This document shows positions 10,595-26,840 of a DNA stretch of 38,194 bases, piece by piece. Within the stretch, counting starts at the first letter, position 1; every line of letters begins with the position of its first letter. The DNA comes from a virus. A program made the translations under genes and the position numbers. The DNA lies in the IMG/VR virus record IMGVR_UViG_3300030943_000078, positions 1 to 38,194 of that record, one strand, 5' to 3'. Below the pieces are notes generated by a model. The model saw nothing but the letters and a program-made list of their open reading frames with translations. It did no database searches and was not told the origin of the DNA.

Positions 10595-10945
10595 CTAAAA
10601 ATTAACAGCACACGTTTTACAGTACAACACGCCCCGGCGCATCACAAGGCGCGTGCGCGGCAGAATCTTTTTACAGTGTCCGCATTTGTTCGACGTGATG
10701 CGGCTACGTGGTTGTCGGGGTGTCGCTGCGGCGCATCGTTCACACACATACACCTTTTTCCGCACTTTATACGGGCGTGCAAGTTTACCACCACAGGCGC
10801 ACAGCCGAGCTGTACAACCGCCAATACGTGGCGCTTCGTCGTCGATTTCAGCGCGTGCGAGTCGTTTATACGGCGCGAGTGTCGCAAGCGACGCGCGGGC
10901 GAGACGGTCGCCGATCTCTGAGTCGTACAGTCCGCTAATACTCAT
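10595..10945 (-). CDS. Double zinc-ribbon protein, unknown
   Basis: A 116-residue protein (119 if the ATG at 10954 is used). The start at 10945 (MSISGLYDSEIGDRLARASL) is preferred because GGGGG lies ten bases upstream; the same run is only two bases from the other ATG. It has eight Cys in four pairs (CACGG, CERC, CGHC, CKTC), spaced as two zinc ribbons of rubredoxin-knuckle type. The N-terminus overlaps the 3' end of the MuF gene. Similar Cys-rich small proteins next to MuF genes occur in phages, but I know no assigned role. It could bind DNA or RNA, or fold as a minor head component. Confidence 0.6.
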   Translation of the reverse strand: MSISGLYDSEIGDRLARASLATLAPYKRLARAEIDDEAPRIGGCTARLCACGGKLARPYKVRKKVYVCERCAAATPRQPRSRITSNKCGHCKKILPRTRLVMRRGVLYCKTCAVNF

Positions 10946-12491
10946 AAACAACATACCCCCGTAACGGTTTCACAGACTTTGACGGAATAGCGGCATAACA
11001 CCGACAATTATGAATTGACAAGTTGTTTGCTACATACCACCCTGTCGCTGTTTCGAGGTTATAAACATGACAATCAGAAACTATAGTATCCACTGCAACG
11101 ACGCGCTCAAAAATAAGATCGTGAAAAGTTATTGCGCCGGGAAAAGCGTTCTCGCTTGCTCTATTGAGTTCTTCGGCAATAAAACGGCGCGTGCGTTTAT
11201 TAGACGCCTGCTCATCAAACGCGGCATCAAACCGCGCAATGGCAGTCAAGCAAACGTCATCCGCTTTCAAAACTCCACTCCCGAAGAGAGAAAAAAGATC
11301 ACCGCTGCCGCGCACTCCGCCAAAAGAGGAAAGCCCGAGTCTGAAAAGAGCAGAATTAAGCTCGCTCTCACTCGCTCCAAACAAATGACCGGGCATCATA
11401 TCGGGATTGGTGAAAATGAGTTTGCGGATATGCTCGTCAGTCGAAATATTCCTTTTATCCGTCAGCATCCAATTAACCGTTATAACATCGATTTTTTCCT
11501 CTGGGATTCCGTCGCCGTGGAATTGCGAAGCACTGCCGGTAACGCTTTCAGAAACGCCGCACAAAGAAAAAAAATCGAATATCTTCTCAACCGGCACACC
11601 AGCGTCGTATTCATTTCTTTCGCTTCCGTCGACACTTTGCGCGGAAACTTTGACGACATAGTCACTAGTCTTGACGAGATTCGCAGGCTTCCAGCCACTC
11701 TGTGTCAATACAGGATGATTGCCTGTTGTTCTGATCGTTATACCAGATTCCGTAATGATCGAAGTCAGTTTACCTGTGTACTTGCGCCGAAAACATCGTA
11801 TAACGTCAGAGTTCAGACGTATCTTTGTACCTGAAGGAACACAACCCCACGCCGTGCCCGGATTTCCTTTATGTTCTTTTCCACTCTTTGATACTTCAGT
11901 CGGCGGATCGTCAAAAAGAAAACATTTATTTGCGAGCTTTTTATGCGTTTTTCTGACGCGCTTGTCGCGCTGCGTTGTCCAAATGTAGCGATCTGAAAAC
12001 TCTTTTATTATACCCTCGTTAACAACCGTCCCCAGATTGTATGCATTTTCATCGCCGATCTGCTCGGCCTTGTCTTTATAGTGATCCGCGAACGTGAATA
12101 CTTTATAAACATTTTCACCGTCCCGCGCTTCGAAAACTTTATTTAACGCCTCTTGTGCTGTGTATGAATTTTCTTTTCGCAGTCTCGCAATCTCTTTTTG
12201 AACGACTTCATTCTGCCGGTCGTTCACCATTGTATACAGTGAGTCCCGGAGCGCGCCTTGTGTCTTCAGCCACTCGTGCACCTTACCGTCAAGCGTCCCG
12301 CGATAGACCCGCATCCCTTTCGCAGCATAGTGTTGTTCAAGCGCGCGCCGGTAACGTTTTGAAAAGAGGCGCGCCCGGCTGTCATACTCTTCCCGCGCGT
12401 CTATACTGTCCTCGTTATCCCACACAGCGCGCGCGTAGTCTCTGACCGCTCGACGCCACTGCGGGGCATGCTTTTCAAAAATGTCTATCAT
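10935..12491 (-). CDS. MuF-like minor head protein interrupted by an intein
   Basis: A 518-residue precursor. Residues 1 to 216 and 496 to 518 are host protein: a helical N-terminal region, then RYIWTTQRDKRVRKTHKKLA and GTAWG, joined after splicing to CRCYAAIP, the hallmark GxRC/CRCYA end of the Mu gpF (SPP1 gp7) fold. MuF proteins bind the portal region and help head morphogenesis and DNA ejection. Residues 217 (Cys) to 495 (Asn) form an intein (see separate entry). The spliced product would be 239 residues. The start overlaps the preceding gene by four bases; the gene lies after the portal, the normal MuF place. The insertion point is the most conserved part of the MuF domain, a typical intein target. 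Confidence 0.85.
   Translation of the reverse strand: MIDIFEKHAPQWRRAVRDYARAVWDNEDSIDAREEYDSRARLFSKRYRRALEQHYAAKGMRVYRGTLDGKVHEWLKTQGALRDSLYTMVNDRQNEVVQKEIARLRKENSYTAQEALNKVFEARDGENVYKVFTFADHYKDKAEQIGDENAYNLGTVVNEGIIKEFSDRYIWTTQRDKRVRKTHKKLANKCFLFDDPPTEVSKSGKEHKGNPGTAWGCVPSGTKIRLNSDVIRCFRRKYTGKLTSIITESGITIRTTGNHPVLTQSGWKPANLVKTSDYVVKVSAQSVDGSERNEYDAGVPVEKIFDFFSLCGVSESVTGSASQFHGDGIPEEKIDVITVNWMLTDKRNISTDEHIRKLIFTNPDMMPGHLFGASESELNSALFRLGLSSFGGVRGSGDLFSLFGSGVLKADDVCLTAIARFDAAFDEQASNKRTRRFIAEELNRASENAFPGAITFHDLIFERVVAVDTIVSDCHVYNLETATGWYVANNLSIHNCRCYAAIPSKSVKPLRGYVVYEY
11007..11843 (-). mobile_element. Intein in MuF protein
   Basis: A 279-residue protein-splicing element. Block A is at CVPSGTKIRL (Cys1 = residue 217 of the precursor). 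Block B is at GNHPVLTQSGW with the conserved TxNH-like His. Blocks F/G are at HVYNLETATGWYVANNLSIH with terminal His-Asn, followed by Cys as the +1 nucleophile. All classic splicing residues are present: Cys1, block B His, His-Asn, Cys+1. The middle (precursor residues about 300 to 460) carries FHGDG but no LAGLIDADG or HNH motif on the sense strand. Removal restores an uninterrupted MuF motif. The opposite strand of this DNA carries a separate endonuclease-like gene. Confidence 0.9.
11067..11834 (+). CDS. Antisense Vsr/EDxHD-like homing endonuclease nested in the intein
   Basis: A 255-residue protein encoded opposite the intein and contained within it: it starts 60 bases inside the intein C-terminal boundary and stops 7 bases before the Cys1 codon. 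A GAGG at 11055..11058 sits eight bases before the ATG. Residues about 11 to 55 look like a helix-turn-helix (LKNKIVKSYCAGKSVLACSI). Residues 70 to 105 (STPEERKKITAAAHSAKRGK) look like a NUMOD3-type DNA-binding segment. Residues 115 to 200 have a Vsr/PD-(D/E)XK pattern: GENEFADMLVSRNIPF, QHPINRYNIDFFL, VAVEL, then KKIEYLL and SVVFISF. Likely catalytic acids are E116/E118, D142 and E152. No His is seen between VAVEL and KKIEYLL, where relatives usually have one, so activity is uncertain. Confidence 0.8.
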   Translation: MTIRNYSIHCNDALKNKIVKSYCAGKSVLACSIEFFGNKTARAFIRRLLIKRGIKPRNGSQANVIRFQNSTPEERKKITAAAHSAKRGKPESEKSRIKLALTRSKQMTGHHIGIGENEFADMLVSRNIPFIRQHPINRYNIDFFLWDSVAVELRSTAGNAFRNAAQRKKIEYLLNRHTSVVFISFASVDTLRGNFDDIVTSLDEIRRLPATLCQYRMIACCSDRYTRFRNDRSQFTCVLAPKTSYNVRVQTYLCT

Positions 12492-16272: not shown

Positions 16273-16672
16273 ATTCCCGCAATACGTCCGCGACAGCTTT
16301 GTCTTCTGTGTTGATGTTTAGTGTTGTATCTGTTATCACTTTTTTCCCTTCAGTGAAATCGCCAATGTTTTCAAGTAGTTTAGCAGTCACCATGTCGCAG
16401 CGGCCGAGCATCGTCCCGAAAACGTGATCGACAAGCTGTTGCCCGCTTAACTTCTTTTTCTTCGCTTCGCGGACAACAACACCTTTAATGATTACTGCCG
16501 GGGACACTTCTATTTCATACTCACGGGCGAGTGCTTCAGCGTAAAATTCTGACAGTTTCTTTTTCTCAGCTCGTGCTTTTCCAGACGCCTTTCCACCCAT
16601 CCGTGCAATTTTCTTTTGTTCCGCCTTTGTTCTCGTGTTCTGCGGTTTCAAATTTTCAACTCTTCCAGCCAT
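16247..16672 (-). CDS. Terminase small subunit (putative)
   Basis: A 141-residue protein directly upstream of the large terminase. The N-terminal third is basic and matches the KKxxRMGGKASGKARAxKK style often seen in small terminase or packaging-associated proteins of phages. The rest is helical (LSGQQLVDHVFGTMLG) and ends in an acidic helix. The role would be to recognise viral DNA and regulate the large subunit. Gene order is the main support; the basic N-terminus is an additional hint. Confidence 0.6.
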   Translation of the reverse strand: MAGRVENLKPQNTRTKAEQKKIARMGGKASGKARAEKKKLSEFYAEALAREYEIEVSPAVIIKGVVVREAKKKKLSGQQLVDHVFGTMLGRCDMVTAKLLENIGDFTEGKKVITDTTLNINTEDKAVADVLREYGVSKSEN

Positions 16673-17286
16673 TACGCTTTCACCATCTTCCCTATTCCGA
16701 AAATATCTTGCATCATCTTTTCCGGTTTATCTGCAAGAAATGTTTCACACGCAAGTGCGGCGCCCGGAAAGTTTACCCACTTGTAATCATGCACAAGTAT
16801 AACGCCACCCGGTTGCATTTTGTGGTATACCTTTTTAAAGCTGTCCGTGATGGAGCTATAAAAATCACCGTCGAAAAAAGCAAAACATATTTTATCAGGA
16901 TATTTGTTGTCAGGTATATCACCGAAAAATCCTTTATTGATTACAGGATACGATAGAATTGCATCGTCAAACGTTTTCTTGAACATTTCAATCGATACAG
17001 CAGACGCACCCTTGTCGCATGGTGTTGCGCCGTCTTCTGCTGTTTTTGGCGGCAACCCTTCAAAAGAGTCGTATACATGCAGCGTCTTATCAACCTTCGT
17101 TGCTTTTATGAGTCTTTGAAGGTAGCTCGATGTCATACCGATGTTACAGCCCATTTCGACTATATCCCCCAGAACAGAAAATGTCTCCGCGCAGTTACTC
17201 AGGATGTATTTTAATTGCCCCTCCGCAAGCATCACGAACGTTTTTCCTTCGGCGTCTTTTAATACTTCATCCACTATACTATTCAT
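16672..17286 (-). CDS. TylF/MycF-like SAM-dependent O-methyltransferase
   Basis: A 204-residue class I methyltransferase. Motif I is DIVEMGCNIGMTSSYLQ (SAM-binding Gly loop), followed by LHVYDSFEGLPPK as the acidic strand-2 motif, FAFFDGDFYSSI (metal- and substrate-binding Asp pair) and GGVILVHDYKW. This is the pattern of TylF/macrocin O-methyltransferases, which act on sugars. Its start overlaps the stop of the homing endonuclease gene (ATGA). Lying beside a two-domain glycosyltransferase it may finish a glycan on the virion, on the host surface or on DNA. The substrate is not predictable. Confidence 0.8.
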   Translation of the reverse strand: MNSIVDEVLKDAEGKTFVMLAEGQLKYILSNCAETFSVLGDIVEMGCNIGMTSSYLQRLIKATKVDKTLHVYDSFEGLPPKTAEDGATPCDKGASAVSIEMFKKTFDDAILSYPVINKGFFGDIPDNKYPDKICFAFFDGDFYSSITDSFKKVYHKMQPGGVILVHDYKWVNFPGAALACETFLADKPEKMMQDIFGIGKMVKA

Positions 17287-17822
17287 ACACCCTCGTTTAT
17301 TAAAGCAAATTTGCCAAAATATTTGACAGCCGCTACATTATAGGCATGCGCGGCGTCTTCTTTATTGCAAAATAATCCTAAATAAATATGTTTGTAATTA
17401 ACTTTTATTTGCGCACTCCATTTTTTATTTAATTCTCTCCAGAAAACACCTTTATGTCCTGATTTGTTATTTACTCTCAATTTTTGGTTTCCCATATTTT
17501 CAGAGTGTGCGCAGCTCCTCAGGTTTTCTTTTTTATTATTGCAGCCGTCGCCGTTCTTATGATCTATATCAACATTGCAGTCGTCACACCCTAAAATAAA
17601 CCTATGAAGATAGACAGGTTTACATTTGTTATTACTCCATTTACCAGCTCTTACATAAAAAGTTTTTCCATCGTTCTTATAATCACAATACCAGCGATAT
17701 TGTCTGACCTTGTCCCAGTCTTCTATATCTATGATAACTTCTTTATTGCCGTACTTAACCGACTCAATAAGGAATTTCAGTACTTTTTTGTCTTGATACG
17801 TGATTGTGTTTGATTGCTGCAC
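17283..17822 (-). CDS. HNH homing endonuclease with AP2 domain
   Basis: A 179-residue free-standing homing endonuclease. Order: N-terminal IDIEDWDKVRQYRWYC, HNH core with LHRFILG, VDIDHKNGDGCNNKKENLR (first His of the HNH followed by Asn), then an AP2-type DNA-binding domain at SGHKGVFWRELNKKWSAQI with YLGLFCNKEDAAHAYN. It starts with GTG, with GGGAG eight bases upstream inside the end of the glycosyltransferase gene. It ends in an ATGA overlap with the methyltransferase. It probably invaded the junction between these two genes without disrupting either. All HNH catalytic residues look intact. Confidence 0.9.
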   Translation of the reverse strand: MQQSNTITYQDKKVLKFLIESVKYGNKEVIIDIEDWDKVRQYRWYCDYKNDGKTFYVRAGKWSNNKCKPVYLHRFILGCDDCNVDIDHKNGDGCNNKKENLRSCAHSENMGNQKLRVNNKSGHKGVFWRELNKKWSAQIKVNYKHIYLGLFCNKEDAAHAYNVAAVKYFGKFALINEGV

Positions 17823-17824
17823 AA

Positions 17825-19045
17825 TTAAACTCCCTTATGATAGATATCGAGCGTCGTTCCAAAATGGTGTCTTGCATAAATTTTGTCCGGCCCTGTATAC
17901 TTTACGCCCGTGAAATGCTCGGGGATCATGAAGTGAGAGGGAAATATTTTTACGTTTGCTTTTGTCTGTCGATACATCTCACCCATATATTGATTGCCGG
18001 TTGTTTTCCACGGTTCGCCGACTGTCTCTTTTTGCCGTAACCCTTCAATCAATTCCGCTGCAAATACACTACCTTGCACAGCTGCTAATAGTGGTGATAT
18101 GAGTCCGGGTCGTACCGTTTCATTTTCCCAAACACTATACGAATCAAAGTCATTGTAAAACAGTTCATCAATCGGTGCAAGACATTCCGCATCGGCGTCC
18201 ATAAAAACGCCACCGTATTTATGTAATATTTCATATTGACAAACGTCTTTCGCGCCATGCCAAACACCACTCGACATATAATAGTCAATATGTTTTCTAT
18301 TTATAAAGTTTTCCTTATCTATATCCTTTTCAGTCCACAGCCTGCACTCCCAATCGGGATTAAACTCTTCCCAGCTTCGCATCCACTTAAGCGGCATCGG
18401 TTTTGGCCCAAACCACGCCCTATGTATGATCTTTGGTATGGTGACAGGTTCTTCGCCTGATAGCTTCCACGTCGGCAGCGACACCGTATTATTTGCAACG
18501 GATGGGATTTCCGAGCGGTGCCCGATAAGTGAGGGCACAGGAAAAAGGATCTTCATGCCGTTACGCTTCACGTATTCAGATATACGGTCGTCATCATGCT
18601 GTGAGCGCTGCCGGTCAAATTCGGCGATCATCGGTTGTATGTGTGTCACGGGTAAACATATTGCAACACCGCCCCGCGTCACATTGTCCGTGTAGACGCC
18701 GTCTTTTACCCATAGGGGCGAGCGGTGGCGGTCTTGCTTCAGGAAAAAATTATACCCTTGCGCTCGTCGGTTTTCCTTTATCCGCTTTTCTTCCTGTGCT
18801 GTTATAAAAGCAACGGCCTTTTCTCTGAAGTTATCGCAGACAATACTGTCATCTTGTATCACAAGGTGATGCGTACACAATGGATCATGCTTCATCCATG
18901 ACGCCCGGCTGTTTGCTATAAGGTTGTTTTGTTGGTCTATACTGAAATTAGAGTCGGAAAGTTGCAGTTTTTCCTTCAAATAGGGGAAAAACTGAGTGCG
19001 CGAGGGGTGCGCCATGACACAAATTGATAGTTTTACCGGTTCCAT
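17825..19045 (-). CDS. Two-domain glycosyltransferase (N-terminal GT, C-terminal GT32/OCH1-like)
   Basis: A 406-residue protein. The N-terminal half starts MEPVKLSICVMAHPSR and has HHLVIQDDSIVCDNF, a GT-A-like nucleotide-sugar site. The C-terminal half starts at IPKIIHRAWFGPKPMP and carries GGVFMDADAECL, the DXD motif of GT32 (capsular polysaccharide / OCH1-type) enzymes. Two complete-looking transferases in one chain suggest two consecutive sugar additions. The frame could begin at a TTG at 19072, but neither start has a clear Shine-Dalgarno; I chose the ATG at 19045. It is the first gene of the late minus-strand operon, with a methyltransferase two genes on. The acceptor is unknown. Confidence 0.8.
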   Translation of the reverse strand: MEPVKLSICVMAHPSRTQFFPYLKEKLQLSDSNFSIDQQNNLIANSRASWMKHDPLCTHHLVIQDDSIVCDNFREKAVAFITAQEEKRIKENRRAQGYNFFLKQDRHRSPLWVKDGVYTDNVTRGGVAICLPVTHIQPMIAEFDRQRSQHDDDRISEYVKRNGMKILFPVPSLIGHRSEIPSVANNTVSLPTWKLSGEEPVTIPKIIHRAWFGPKPMPLKWMRSWEEFNPDWECRLWTEKDIDKENFINRKHIDYYMSSGVWHGAKDVCQYEILHKYGGVFMDADAECLAPIDELFYNDFDSYSVWENETVRPGLISPLLAAVQGSVFAAELIEGLRQKETVGEPWKTTGNQYMGEMYRQTKANVKIFPSHFMIPEHFTGVKYTGPDKIYARHHFGTTLDIYHKGV

Positions 19046-19364
19046 ATACGTTTTCTGTACGGTACGCGTCAAAAAGTCAACCGTTTTTTTTCAGGTCTTC
19101 GCAGGCGTCCGCCCGTCCTCGATAACCAATCCTTCGGGTTGGTGTCATAATAATATTTCATACACACAGCACGTGTTTCCTAAGATAAAAAAAATATTAA
19201 AGTTTAGAGAATGCTTTGAGAGGACGGTGAGCAAATTAAAATAGCCCCTTTTTTCAAAAAACGGTCATAATCGTCAATGTTTACGACTATACGTAATTGC
19301 ATAACTACACATACGTTAGTGTCCGCCCACTTTTTGCCAACCCTCAAAAAACGCATGTTTTTGT
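19046..19364. other. Late-operon leader / intergenic region
   Basis: About 320 bases between the glycosyltransferase start and the half-site cluster. It contains a short stem with a TTCG loop (about 19118 to 19137), several A/T-rich stretches and no good -35/-10 pair on the minus strand. A short minus-strand frame (about 19204 to 19398) lacks a Shine-Dalgarno and I do not call it. The late promoter probably lies here but needs a phage-encoded activator or a non-canonical sequence, since I cannot recognise it. Confidence 0.4.
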
Positions 19365-19485: not shown

Positions 19486-19529
19486 TTAAAGAAAAATAAA
19501 TTGACAAAGCGGCGGCAGTGTGCTATAGA
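19486..19529 (+). promoter_or_regulatory. Promoter P1 (TTGACA-17-TATAGA) with A-rich box
   Basis: TTGACA at 19501..19506, 17-nt spacer, TATAGA at 19524..19529, preceded by TTAAAGAAAAATAAA (19486..19500). The spacer is GC-rich and ends TGTGC, giving a TGn-like extended -10. It drives the degenerate HNH-like gene starting at 19566. It shares its architecture with three other promoters in this genome. Confidence 0.85.
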
Positions 19530-19565: not shown

Positions 19566-19949
19566 ATGACATTTACAATAATAACTAAAAAACGCGGTGA
19601 CTTCACGGTTGAGATTGATGACGAAGATTGGCCGCGTGTACGCGGTCGTCAGTGGCAGCCGTTAAACGGGTCAGTTCGATCCTGTGACCGCGACCAAATA
19701 TATGGAAACCCAACCACGTGTCTTCAGTGCTTCATTTTACAAGATACAAAAATCAGCGACGATGAAACAATCGCTTTTCGCGACGGTAACATATTAAACA
19801 ATAAAAAAGAAAATTTCCGCGTCTGCACACAGGCGGAAAGCGAGGGTAAAGAGTTGTCAAGAAAAAACACCACGCTGCGTTTTGCCGCCGTTGCGTGGTG
19901 TATGGCACGAAGAAAATTCTGTTCTCGCGCTATGCTCAATAATGATTAA
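19566..19949 (+). CDS. Degenerate HNH homing-endonuclease-like protein
   Basis: A 127-residue protein from ATG 19566 (GCGGGG lies a few bases upstream); an upstream in-frame start at 19518 lies inside the -10 region and is rejected. The frame keeps the homing endonuclease layout: VEIDDEDWPRVRGRQW at the N-terminus and DGNILNNKKENFRVCTQAES near residue 85. The HNH catalytic histidines are gone: the LHRFIL position reads LQCFIL and the DHxDGN position reads AFRDGN. The AP2 domain is absent. Its relative at 17283 is intact. It is transcribed from its own strong promoter at the early/late junction, so it may have become a DNA-binding regulator. Its stop overlaps that of the small minus-strand gene next to it. 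Confidence 0.65.
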   Translation: MTFTIITKKRGDFTVEIDDEDWPRVRGRQWQPLNGSVRSCDRDQIYGNPTTCLQCFILQDTKISDDETIAFRDGNILNNKKENFRVCTQAESEGKELSRKNTTLRFAAVAWCMARRKFCSRAMLNND

Positions 19950-20056
19950 ACGCTTTCTTCGTATGTTTCTTCAGTCTCGATCTCACTATCTTCGTCTTCT
20001 TGCCGATTGTCGTACCGTTCCTGACAATACGACATTTGTTTGTCTGTTCCGATCAT
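19946..20056 (-). CDS. Small acidic protein, unknown
   Basis: A 36-residue frame starting MIGTDKQMSYCQERYDNRQE, with a strong AGGGGGGA Shine-Dalgarno about five bases before the ATG at 20056. The C-terminus is almost entirely Glu, Asp and Ser. It is the last gene of the minus-strand lipoprotein operon and its stop overlaps the stop of the convergent HNH-like gene. A very acidic peptide can mimic DNA or bind a basic partner. No function can be assigned. Confidence 0.5.
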   Translation of the reverse strand: MIGTDKQMSYCQERYDNRQEDEDSEIETEETYEESV

Positions 20057-20075
20057 ATTCCGTCCCCCCTTTATA

Positions 20076-21002
20076 TTATTTTATAGATTTGTAAATGTCT
20101 TTCAAGCTGCTATCTACGATCATACTATACACGGTGTTTTGATCATATGAAAAGATCAGCATCGTTTTGACTGTTCCCGTGGTATCAACAAACTCGGCAA
20201 GATGCGGATCGCAGACGTGTATGTCAGGATTACCAAACGATAATTTTTCATCGGTGCGAGTTAGTGTTTTTGAGTCAATAGAATAAATCGCTGAAGCGAC
20301 CCACCAATGAGCCGCGTTTAGATCATTAAATGAATTATTAAGCATTCCATATATGATCATAATTTCACGAGTTTCCGCGTCATAATACAAATAAGGATTG
20401 CCGCCGCCAGAGATAAAAATATCTTCTGTCTTTACCACGTCGAGATTCATATCATTATTAAATGCACACTGAACATATGACAGACACACTTTTTCCTGTC
20501 CTATTTCTTCAGGGCCACACTCAACAAGTACGTGCATGATGTTATTATCATCAATCACAACACCGACATTCCATATATTATACCAAATCGAGGTCTTGTC
20601 TGTTGATTTTGTCAGTATCGGATTCCCGGAATTAAAAGGTATGTAGTCGTACCCGTTGACGGATTCATACACATAGATAGCATTGTCTTTAAGACCAAAC
20701 GTATAGTAAAGATTGTTACGTTTTAACGTATAGGGAAAGCGCGCATCAATGTCGCATTTTTTTGCAGTTCCAGCGCTAAAATACAATAGTCCATTACCAC
20801 TCATTCCATAATCGTACAGATACTCAATACTGTTATTTTTAGTCACAATACTGGATTCAACAGTGTTAAAAAAGAGCAGGCTGTCGGAATGTGATTCTTT
20901 TGCTATGCCATACGTTGTTAAAGAATATTCCGTAATGTTTCCGCATGAAACAACACTTAAAGTAATAAGCAAGGAAATAAGTATTGTAAGAAATGTTTTC
21001 AT
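20076..21002 (-). CDS. Surface lipoprotein with beta-propeller-like body
   Basis: A 308-residue protein with a lipoprotein signal: basic start MKTFLTILIS, hydrophobic core and lipobox VVSC at residues 17 to 20. AAGGAG lies upstream of the ATG. The mature part is beta-rich with repeated blades (YFSAG..., NGYDYIPFNSGNPIL, NIWNVGVVIDDNNIMHVLVE, ETREIMIIYG), resembling five-bladed glycosidase-type propellers (GH43/GH32-like folds), though I see no clear catalytic acid set. Codon use is more A/T-rich than in the late genes, which suggests separate acquisition. It sits in its own minus-strand operon from promoter P2. A phage-borne lipoprotein made early could alter the host surface or block superinfection. 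Function is inference. Confidence 0.7.
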   Translation of the reverse strand: MKTFLTILISLLITLSVVSCGNITEYSLTTYGIAKESHSDSLLFFNTVESSIVTKNNSIEYLYDYGMSGNGLLYFSAGTAKKCDIDARFPYTLKRNNLYYTFGLKDNAIYVYESVNGYDYIPFNSGNPILTKSTDKTSIWYNIWNVGVVIDDNNIMHVLVECGPEEIGQEKVCLSYVQCAFNNDMNLDVVKTEDIFISGGGNPYLYYDAETREIMIIYGMLNNSFNDLNAAHWWVASAIYSIDSKTLTRTDEKLSFGNPDIHVCDPHLAEFVDTTGTVKTMLIFSYDQNTVYSMIVDSSLKDIYKSIK

Positions 21003-21013
21003 TGTGCCGCTCC

Positions 21014-21178
21014 TTATATAACCATTTCAATTTCTTTAACACAGGTCCGTAAATCCCTTGCAATTCCTCTAATTTTCTCAATATGCCTTTTATACGCGTC
21101 AGGGTCAAGCCCGTGCACTTCAATGAATATTTCCAGTTCGTCAAGGTCTGCGATAGCTTTGTGTAGTGTTGTTATCAT
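21014..21178 (-). CDS. Small helical protein, unknown
   Basis: A 54-residue frame starting MITTLHKAIADLDELEIFIE, followed by a charged helical stretch (HIEKIRGIARDLRTCVKEIE). GGAAGG lies about ten bases before the ATG. The lipoprotein ATG follows eleven bases after its stop, with the lipoprotein Shine-Dalgarno in between, so the two are co-transcribed. Residues alternate as in a coiled coil. It could be a partner or regulator; nothing more can be said. Confidence 0.5.
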   Translation of the reverse strand: MITTLHKAIADLDELEIFIEVHGLDPDAYKRHIEKIRGIARDLRTCVKEIEMVI

Positions 21179-21225
21179 TGATTTTCAACCTTCCCCGTAT
21201 AGCCGATAGGACAGCTTAAAGATTG

Positions 21226-21393
21226 TTATTCGTGGTTATATATACCGTGAATGCAGAGAAAAGACGCAATTGCCCATTTACATGGATAATTGTTCATACG
21301 TGCAGTAACGTATTTACGGCCGATGACAAGATGTGTTAATTTCTGACGTTCTGCAATTTCTTTGATTATGTTGTTTCTTTCTACCGTTGTCAT
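21226..21393 (-). CDS. Small protein, unknown, first in lipoprotein operon
   Basis: A 55-residue protein starting MTTVERNNIIKEIAERQKLT. AGAGGG lies eight bases before the ATG at 21393; the longer frame to 21429 would begin within a few bases of the -10 of P2 and is rejected. The N-terminal half is helical and charged; the C-terminal half has ARMNNYPCKWAIASFLCIHG. It is the first gene behind promoter P2 and could be a DNA-binding regulator, but no motif is certain. Confidence 0.5.
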   Translation of the reverse strand: MTTVERNNIIKEIAERQKLTHLVIGRKYVTARMNNYPCKWAIASFLCIHGIYNHE

Positions 21394-21425
21394 AATGTTC
21401 CCTCTCTTTTCGTTTTGATAATAAT

Positions 21426-21469
21426 ACAATAGCGCAGCGGGATAATAATGTCAACTATTTTTCTTTAAA
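21426..21469 (-). promoter_or_regulatory. Promoter P2 (TTGACA-17-TATTGT) with A-rich box
   Basis: On the minus strand TTGACA (21454..21449), 17-nt spacer, TATTGT (21431..21426), preceded by TTTAAAGAAAAATAG (21469..21455). The spacer ends TGCGC as in P3. It reads into the lipoprotein operon and is divergent from P3, about 100 bases away. Confidence 0.85.
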
Positions 21470-21534: not shown

Positions 21535-21578
21535 TTAAAGAAAATAAAGTTGACAACGCCGCCCCCTTGCGCTAGTGT
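21535..21578 (+). promoter_or_regulatory. Promoter P3 (TTGACA-17-TAGTGT), early operon
   Basis: TTGACA (21550..21555), 17-nt GC-rich spacer ending TGCGC, TAGTGT (21573..21578), preceded by TTAAAGAAAATAAAG (21535..21549). It reads into the replication operon starting at 21611. Confidence 0.85.
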
Positions 21579-21610: not shown

Positions 21611-21916
21611 ATGCGACATAGAATTGGAAAGGGACAGATCATCGCATTTGATGCGACCTTAGAAAAAAGACTTGAAGAAATGCGAAAGGCGAAAGGATAC
21701 TACCCGACATTAAAAGAGATCGGCGAAAGTTTCACGCCGCCGCACTCAGTCAATTTTATCTTTCGAGCGCTGCGCCGTTTATACGAAGCGGGCAAACTTT
21801 CCGACGAAGCAAACAAAGTATATGACGCAAAAAACAAAACAGGGGATAAAAATGAAAACAGTCAAAAAATCATCAAAACCAAAACCAGCGCCAAAGCTAA
21901 AAGAATCAAAAAGTAA
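21611..21916 (+). CDS. Small winged-helix-like DNA-binding protein
   Basis: A 101-residue basic protein starting MRHRIGKGQIIAFDATLEKR, preceded by GCAGGAAAG. Its middle (GYYPTLKEIGESF, then HSVNFIFRALRRLYEAGKLS) has the pattern of a LexA/MarR-like winged helix: a 'YPTxxEI' start, a turn, a recognition helix and a basic wing. The C-terminus is lysine-rich and disordered. It is the first gene of the early operon, just behind P3, so it may regulate the early promoters. The frame overlaps the Cas4-like gene by 65 bases. The regulator role is inference. Confidence 0.55.
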   Translation: MRHRIGKGQIIAFDATLEKRLEEMRKAKGYYPTLKEIGESFTPPHSVNFIFRALRRLYEAGKLSDEANKVYDAKNKTGDKNENSQKIIKTKTSAKAKRIKK

Positions 21917-26521: not shown

Positions 26522-26709
26522 ACTGCTCGACGTGTACACATGAGGGAACGATGGCCTGCGATCTATGCAGCGACGGTTTCGATTTATATACGCCGATGGA
26601 AAAAGACGACGCGGGGAAACTTCGCCCCGGTCTGTTTCCGATGGAAAGCGCAGAGAAGCTTTTCGAGACCATAAAGAAAGAATTGATGCGCTTTTCCGGC
26701 ACTGGATAG
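26518..26709 (+). CDS. Cys-rich protein with DUF5664-like start (5' part of split gene)
   Basis: A 63-residue protein with CSTCTHEGTMACDLC (two CxxC pairs) and then DDAGKLRPGLFP, which resembles the 'DAGKxRxxLxP' start of DUF5664 (dATP/dGTP-pyrophosphohydrolase-like) proteins. The reading frame closes at 26709, but the C-terminal DUF5664 signature continues in the -1 frame (see next entry). Residues AEKLFETIKKE match a stretch of the nuclease at 21852 exactly, with different codons. It is either a frameshifted gene or two short products made by a programmed -1 shift. Confidence 0.5.
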   Translation: MNCSTCTHEGTMACDLCSDGFDLYTPMEKDDAGKLRPGLFPMESAEKLFETIKKELMRFSGTG

Positions 26710-26840
26710 CGTGGAAGACGGGAGAGGAAAACGACGCGGAGTCCGGACTTTCACACGCTGCGCACTTTGCGACGAACGCGATTTTTCTTTTGTACTTTGA
26801 TATTATGAAAAAGGAAGGCGGCAATGGCCTCACGAAATAA
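26682..26840 (+). pseudogene. DUF5664-like C-terminal fragment in the -1 frame
   Basis: The frame one base back from the preceding gene reads IDALFRHWIAWKTGEENDAE, then SGLSHAAHFATNAIFLLYF. This matches the 'RHxxAWxxGExxDxESGLxHxAHxxxNxxFLL' core of DUF5664 proteins of phages. No good start codon precedes it, so it is either the second half of a -1 frameshifted gene (an A-rich run AAAGAAAG lies at the junction) or a decayed remnant. The middle of a normal DUF5664 protein, with its YGxxKY motif, is missing. It ends inside the next gene. Confidence 0.55.

Follow-up and report, generated by a model that had tools for sequence, protein, structure and literature searches.

Cassette anatomy and promoter class

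The DNA analysed here (the window) is IMG/VR record IMGVR_UViG_3300030943_000078, the whole of a 38,194-base virus record with the gene set of a tailed phage. As read from its sequence, the minus strand between a convergent HNH endonuclease gene and a divergent rightward operon holds a four-gene unit (the cassette), which consists of a promoter, four open reading frames (ORFs), and a terminator, and whose longest ORF bears a lipobox. The features of the cassette are as follows:

21426..21461 (core 21454..21426), minus strand: predicted promoter TTGACA-17-TATTGT with an A-tract, an exact match to the pattern
21393..21226, minus strand: 55-residue ORF, called as an ORF with a Shine-Dalgarno (SD)-like sequence, function not assigned
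21178..21014, minus strand: 54-residue ORF, possibly a small helical or HhH-like protein
21002..20076, minus strand: 308-residue predicted lipoprotein, with lipobox VVSC and Cys20 and with similarity to a propeller family
20056..19946, minus strand: 36-residue acidic ORF, called as an ORF with an SD-like sequence
~19901..19860, minus strand: rho-independent terminator-like hairpin with a 9-pair outer stem (-19.0 kcal/mol), followed by TTTTTCT

A preliminary description of the window had listed four minus-strand ORFs of 55, 54, 308, and 36 residues, and we found each of them where it had been placed. Together they fill 1371 of the 1467 bases from 21412 to 19946. When the 1509-base stretch was shuffled 1000 times with its dinucleotides preserved, the longest ORF reached 184 residues, and 308 residues was reached in none of the 1000 shuffles. 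SD-like purine-rich sequences lie upstream of the cassette ORFs and are best for the lipoprotein and the 36-residue ORF. At the far end, the stop codons of the 36-residue ORF and the HNH gene overlap tail to tail, and the 3' end of the HNH gene runs through the cassette terminator; our terminator scanner, which has a loop limit of 3-8, did not report this hairpin. The proposal that the cassette is a separate transcription unit is borne out by its own TTGACA-N17-TATTGT promoter and its hairpin and T-run terminator between the convergent HNH gene and the divergent rightward operon, and its position outside the late operon is likewise confirmed. As had also been described, its composition is atypical, with a guanine-plus-cytosine (GC) content of 37.6% compared to 46.4% for the window. 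At third codon positions, GC is 0.34-0.43 in the four cassette ORFs and 0.42-0.59 in 22 of the 24 other tabulated ORFs. Since a 179-residue HNH gene (0.344) and the C5 methyltransferase gene (0.358) are equally AT-rich by this measure, the composition of the cassette is not unique in the window.

The A-tract and core of the cassette promoter are common to rightward sites at 19494, 21543, and 25672. The pattern AAAAWANTTGACA-N17-TANNGT has 4 sites at no more than 2 mismatches against 0.13 expected in shuffles, a count that overstates the promoter class because the pattern was derived from these same sites. The looser pattern TTGACA-N17-TANNNT has 3 sites against 0.40 expected, and at least 3 sites occurred in 1 of 100 shuffles. 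A search for the promoter pattern with 3 mismatches allowed found one site in locus L008 of a related phage, which is at chance level (59 of 200 shuffles), and the exact 30-base promoter sequence had 0 matches in IMG/VR. Because the cassette promoter shares its class with the rightward promoters, co-expression with the rightward genes is more likely than expression in lysogeny only, and the cassette and these replication-side genes probably share their polymerase and their approximate time of transcription. The label "moron" given to the cassette thus fits its accessory anatomy; the independent, lysogeny-expressed gene that the label also implies is not borne out, since the promoter belongs to a class that the phage uses elsewhere in its genome.

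Evidence that the cassette is accessory comes from the relative IMGVR_UViG_3300038673_000502 (loci L002, L005, and L008), whose terminase, glycosyltransferase, HNH-like gene, homologue of the first ORF of the rightward operon (p101), and exonuclease follow one another as in the window. Identities to the window are 75% for the terminase, 64% for the exonuclease, 61% for the glycosyltransferase, and 56% for p101. The gap between the HNH gene and p101 is -11 base pairs (bp) in L002, where the HNH stop overlaps the p101 start, compared to 1661 bp in the window, and the cassette therefore looks accessory. It is absent in 1 of the 1 relatives that cover its site, which agrees with the earlier proposal of an inserted cassette. 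The lipoprotein had no match anywhere in the record of this relative, and none of the four cassette proteins had a tblastn match (expectation value, E, of 0.05) in 37 loci from phages and metagenome-assembled genomes (MAGs). Two distinct IMG/VR contigs that are 100% identical to the window both stop at base 18934 inside the glycosyltransferase gene, short of the cassette; these are the 100%-identical contigs that extend furthest towards it, and their common end could reflect strain variation towards the HNH and cassette region or an effect of assembly.

The predicted lipoprotein and its possible propeller fold

The N-terminus of the 308-residue protein, MKTFLTILISLLITLSVVSC followed by G, has an orthodox signal peptide and, as the preliminary description had held, a lipobox (VVSC with Cys20), and it fits four lipobox patterns. 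Searches for homologues gave no match in Pfam, propeller models included, and best E values of 0.27 in PHROG, 0.81 among PDB sequences, and 0.21 in NCBIfam. With tblastn at E 1, 0 of 50,697 phage records matched, and no homologue was found in IMG/VR, plasmids, or GTDB contigs, nor in 10 phage relatives or three further sequences. The related-locus searches require exact 8-residue patterns and therefore miss distant relatives. As for the small ORFs, the 55-residue protein had no match in Pfam, PHROG, PADLOC, NCBIfam, or the phage collection, while the 54-residue protein had a sub-threshold match to Pfam PF21616 (E 2e-4) and no relative in IMG/VR or the phage collection. Against the PADLOC defence models at E 1, each of the four cassette proteins hit 0 families.

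A lead on the fold came from 392 Spirochaetes genomes, 12 of which had lipoprotein matches at E 0.01. Nine of these 12 fall in one secreted family of 633-660 residues (best E 5.9e-5), while a control with the reversed lipoprotein matched 3 of the 392 genomes in scattered, unrelated places (best E 3.7e-3). This family (~640 residues; L013, L014, L024, and others) occurs in 112 of the 392 genomes. Three of its members match Pfam propeller models, mostly under the cut-offs, and the members scanned had no family-specific model in Pfam or NCBIfam. An alignment of the family compared to PQQ-repeat proteins gave 96% with hhalign, and residues 172-261 of L013, an overlapping stretch, are weakly like BamB (TIGR03300, E 5.7e-4).

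When the mature lipoprotein was compared to this family by hhalign, we obtained 88% with a 9-member alignment (20 shuffles, no more than 3.4%) and 71% with a 30-member alignment (40 shuffles, no more than 1.6%), and a single-comparison hmmsearch gave 8e-10, all of which are optimistic values because the family was selected for matching. In a comparison of 95 ORFs with the 9-member alignment, likewise optimistic, the lipoprotein frame scored 87.4, and the remaining 94 scored no more than 2.9. The aligned stretch is a single one, residues ~65-142, with a core, LYYTFGLKDNAIYVYESVNGYDYIPFNSGNPIL, that looks like a propeller blade. Foldseek and VIA-align searches on two structure models returned mostly propellers, with template modelling (TM) scores of ~0.2-0.3 and Z mostly below 8, and these matches carry little weight because the confidence of the models is low; a BFVD fold search gave nothing usable. 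The "beta-propeller-like" character assigned earlier thus has moderate backing from residues ~65-142 (71-88%), weak backing from the structure models, and none from internal repeats. On balance, we lean towards a propeller fold for the lipoprotein.

Two candidates were set aside. The short proteins L104 and L105 were first taken as lipoprotein-like and by eye resemble PQQ-type repeat proteins. A GH43 glycosidase was suggested by Foldseek and by eye; hhalign gave 0.7-1.2% compared to shuffles of up to 1.5%, with small home-made profiles, and there was no Pfam match.

Neighbouring genes and probable host

The genes around the cassette and the wider gene set of the phage are as follows:

19566..19949, plus strand: HNH-type endonuclease, 127 residues (phrog_4578, E 2e-6), convergent to the cassette
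21543..21578, plus strand: predicted divergent rightward promoter, of the same class as the cassette promoter
21611..21916, plus strand: p101, 101-residue ORF, first in the rightward operon, 56% identical over 75 residues to an ORF in L002
17825..19072, minus strand: glycosyltransferase of the DXD type (PF04488, phrog_854), 61% in L002, conserved in relatives
16672-17286: TylF-type methyltransferase, adjoining an AP2/HNH endonuclease and the glycosyltransferase (window 16672-19072)
minus strand of the window: terminase (phrog_38), portal, MuF-like head protein, and glycosyltransferase
plus strand of the window: exonuclease/DUF2800, single-stranded DNA-binding protein, DNA polymerase A, helicase, C5 methyltransferase, and DUF5906

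The 127-residue HNH gene is a paralogue, 30% identical, of the HNH gene at 17283-17822, and the two may have aided gene gain and loss here. The window HNH (19566-19949) lacks the stretch that carries the His-rich HNH motif of the L002 protein and may be degenerate, since this stretch is missing. In relatives, TylF is 74% identical in L025 and 56% in L026, and the glycosyltransferase is 52% identical in L026 and ~49% in L027; judged by this conservation, the two genes appear to form a stable module for glycan modification in this group of phages. In L009, four ORFs of 226-421 residues lie upstream of the terminase and by eye resemble glycosyltransferases and a methyltransferase.

The window also has an endolysin-like ORF. 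A scan that covered the window ORFs except for some of the small ones recognised neither an integrase nor a repressor. The MuF-like head protein (10935-12491, minus strand) has an intein-like insertion (PF14890, residues 227-495). The protein aligned in L008, L026, and L012 over residues 1-217 or 1-232, and since these alignments stop before the insertion, with that of L008 restarting at 478, the insertion looks absent from all three. At 26565-26840, the last ~47 residues of a 91-residue ORF resemble parts of the unrelated phrog_801 (a pyrophosphohydrolase) and of phrog_5033 and phrog_2252 (endolysins), and this C-terminal part is perhaps a small mobile domain.

The best cellular relative of the phage comes from a Spirochaetes MAG, in which a contig of 57,989 bases holds a phage region with identities of 71% for the terminase, 61% for the portal, and 76% for a 492-residue head-region protein. 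The opposite end of this contig has two tRNA-Met genes and genes of the aspartyl-tRNA synthetase, semialdehyde dehydrogenase, and isocitrate/isopropylmalate dehydrogenase types. Because these housekeeping genes are on the same contig, this relative probably resides in a chromosome as a prophage. The same phage region (L012, L049, and L050) includes a Baseplate J-like gene. Terminase matches at E 1e-20 were found in 4 of the 392 Spirochaetes genomes, the other three at 30-35% identity. The window exonuclease had no match in the MAG genome, and one tail comparison between the window and the MAG phage showed no similarity, so that only part of the phage is common to the two. From these sequence matches, a spirochaete-like host is likely, a lead that depends on MAG binning, which can err, and on housekeeping genes assigned by type.

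Proposed function of the lipoprotein and comparison with known systems

That the cassette encodes an accessory envelope lipoprotein seems to us quite probable. In the explanation we prefer, a tailed phage whose host is probably spirochaete-like would have acquired an accessory, moron-like operon, and this operon would be transcribed during infection from its own phage-class promoter and ended by its own terminator. The 308-residue product would be exported and lipidated at Cys20, which would tie it to the envelope; there, its largely beta, probably propeller-like domain would bind an envelope component. A receptor would thereby be masked or jammed and further phages kept out (superinfection exclusion), and the three small ORFs may be accessory or regulatory. 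We infer the host, lipidation, location, fold, and function of the lipoprotein in this account. We give the explanation as a whole, with exclusion as the most likely function, a probability of roughly 0.4; given an accessory envelope lipoprotein, we put exclusion slightly short of even odds.

Several points weigh against this explanation. The assignment of function rests on analogy, and in the descriptions available the known exclusion lipoproteins are far smaller (Rtp45 ~6 kDa; Llp small) and have no detected sequence in common with the window protein. The absence of the cassette was seen in one syntenic relative, so its loss there is possible, and the HNH protein of that relative is weakly similar to the window HNH (12 of 26 residues at the N-terminus). 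The lipoprotein matched 0 of 46 genomes of the Spirochaetes MAG's order, and the ~640-residue propeller family, which was picked for its match, is absent from the MAG genome itself. The two AlphaFold models are poor, with a mean predicted local distance difference test (pLDDT) score of 36.4 and 38.9, and the search for internal repeats gave nothing significant (score 30 compared to a shuffle mean of 33.4, with 46 of 60 shuffles as high).

A lipoprotein that benefits the host, through lysogenic conversion or as an auxiliary function, would bind or process an extracellular substrate, e.g., a polysaccharide, and would aid the bacterium, as Erp and Rev do for theirs, instead of excluding phages. 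Lipoprotein cargo exists in spirochaete prophages, according to PMC10016077. Glycan-modifying genes adjoin the cassette, and the GH43-type xylanase 3kst ranked first and second by Foldseek for the two models (E 2.9e-3 and 8.6e-3; TM 0.30 and 0.26). On the other hand, these models are poor, GH43 profiles did no better than shuffles and Pfam had no match, and the promoter class suits an infection-time role more than a prophage role; we regard host benefit as somewhat unlikely. An early host-takeover module inside the envelope, which might disturb outer-membrane protein assembly or lipoprotein sorting and have exclusion as a side effect or not at all, would draw on the weak likeness of the propeller family to BamB (TIGR03300) and its likeness to PQQ proteins (hhalign 96%). 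BamB is an outer-membrane lipoprotein propeller. The lipoprotein itself, however, gave 2.0% with PQQ-repeat proteins, slightly above shuffles (maximum 0.9%), and this role appears distinctly unlikely.

Since propellers are found in phage receptor-binding devices, such as that of phi11, the protein might instead be a virion or adsorption component, tail-associated or envelope-targeting, that the phage needs and expresses separately. The phi11 structure, 5efv, was ranked 7 by Foldseek (E 0.045). The cassette, however, is separate from the late structural operon and is served by a promoter of the rightward class and a terminator to itself, it is missing from a relative with a 75% identical terminase, and virion proteins rarely carry a signal peptide and lipobox, which makes a virion role very unlikely. 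A decaying or junk insertion without function would explain the lack of homologues in the collections searched and the orphan small ORFs, but the 308-residue frame is intact and comes with an SD sequence, lipobox, promoter, and terminator, and we consider this reading equally hard to credit. Exclusion could also take a more specific form, in which a propeller distantly derived from the secreted spirochaete family with BamB-like repeats would be anchored in the outer membrane of a non-Borrelia spirochaete, mimic a host envelope scaffold, and block or re-route receptor assembly or display. This is a long shot; if true, propeller mimicry would be a new class of exclusion lipoprotein, unlike the tiny receptor-jamming peptide.

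If the cassette does encode an accessory envelope lipoprotein that excludes other phages, it has partial counterparts among known systems. Ltp of Streptococcus thermophilus phage TP-J34 prevents DNA injection and, according to PMC3952083, is likewise a phage-encoded accessory lipoprotein (a "moron" according to its authors) with a patchy distribution and an anchor outside the cytoplasmic membrane. It differs in belonging to a Gram-positive phage, in lying in a lysogeny module transcribed in the prophage, and in having repeat domains that act on the tape measure protein. Two further counterparts are Llp of T5, whose target is FhuA, and Rtp45 of phage Rtp, which changes LptD (PMC9586334 and PMC12685063). 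In both cases, a phage that infects a Gram-negative host makes an envelope lipoprotein that shields the cell from further phages, while such protection is only proposed for the 308-residue protein. Llp and Rtp45 are very small (Rtp45 ~6 kDa) and work from the periplasm, where they jam FhuA or LptDE, whereas the window protein has 308 residues, is beta-rich, and is without detected similarity to them. Phage tblastn and PHROG searches found no sequence homology to exclusion lipoproteins, with Llp, Cor, Rtp45, and Ltp not compared one by one.

Within spirochaetes, Erp and Rev are adhesin lipoproteins of Borrelia cp32 prophages and, according to PMC10016077, spirochaete-phage lipoprotein cargo that is shown on the cell surface and serves the bacterium in vertebrate hosts; the window phage, in contrast, is a metagenomic record with no plasmid match. 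The ~640-residue spirochaete propeller family has one stretch that aligns with lipoprotein residues ~65-142 (71-88%), but its members are twice as long and chromosomal, and the three inspected have no [AGS]C lipobox at the N-terminus. Judged by titles and abstract openings, the literature held no match for a phage-encoded propeller lipoprotein. It is plausible that the cassette represents an ordinary kind of phage cargo, an accessory envelope lipoprotein, with an unusual orphan protein. Phage-borne envelope lipoproteins determine which phages can share one host, and the characterised cases in the available sources come from enterobacteria, streptococci, and Borrelia; a 308-residue orphan from a phage whose hosts are probably environmental spirochaetes would add to this set.

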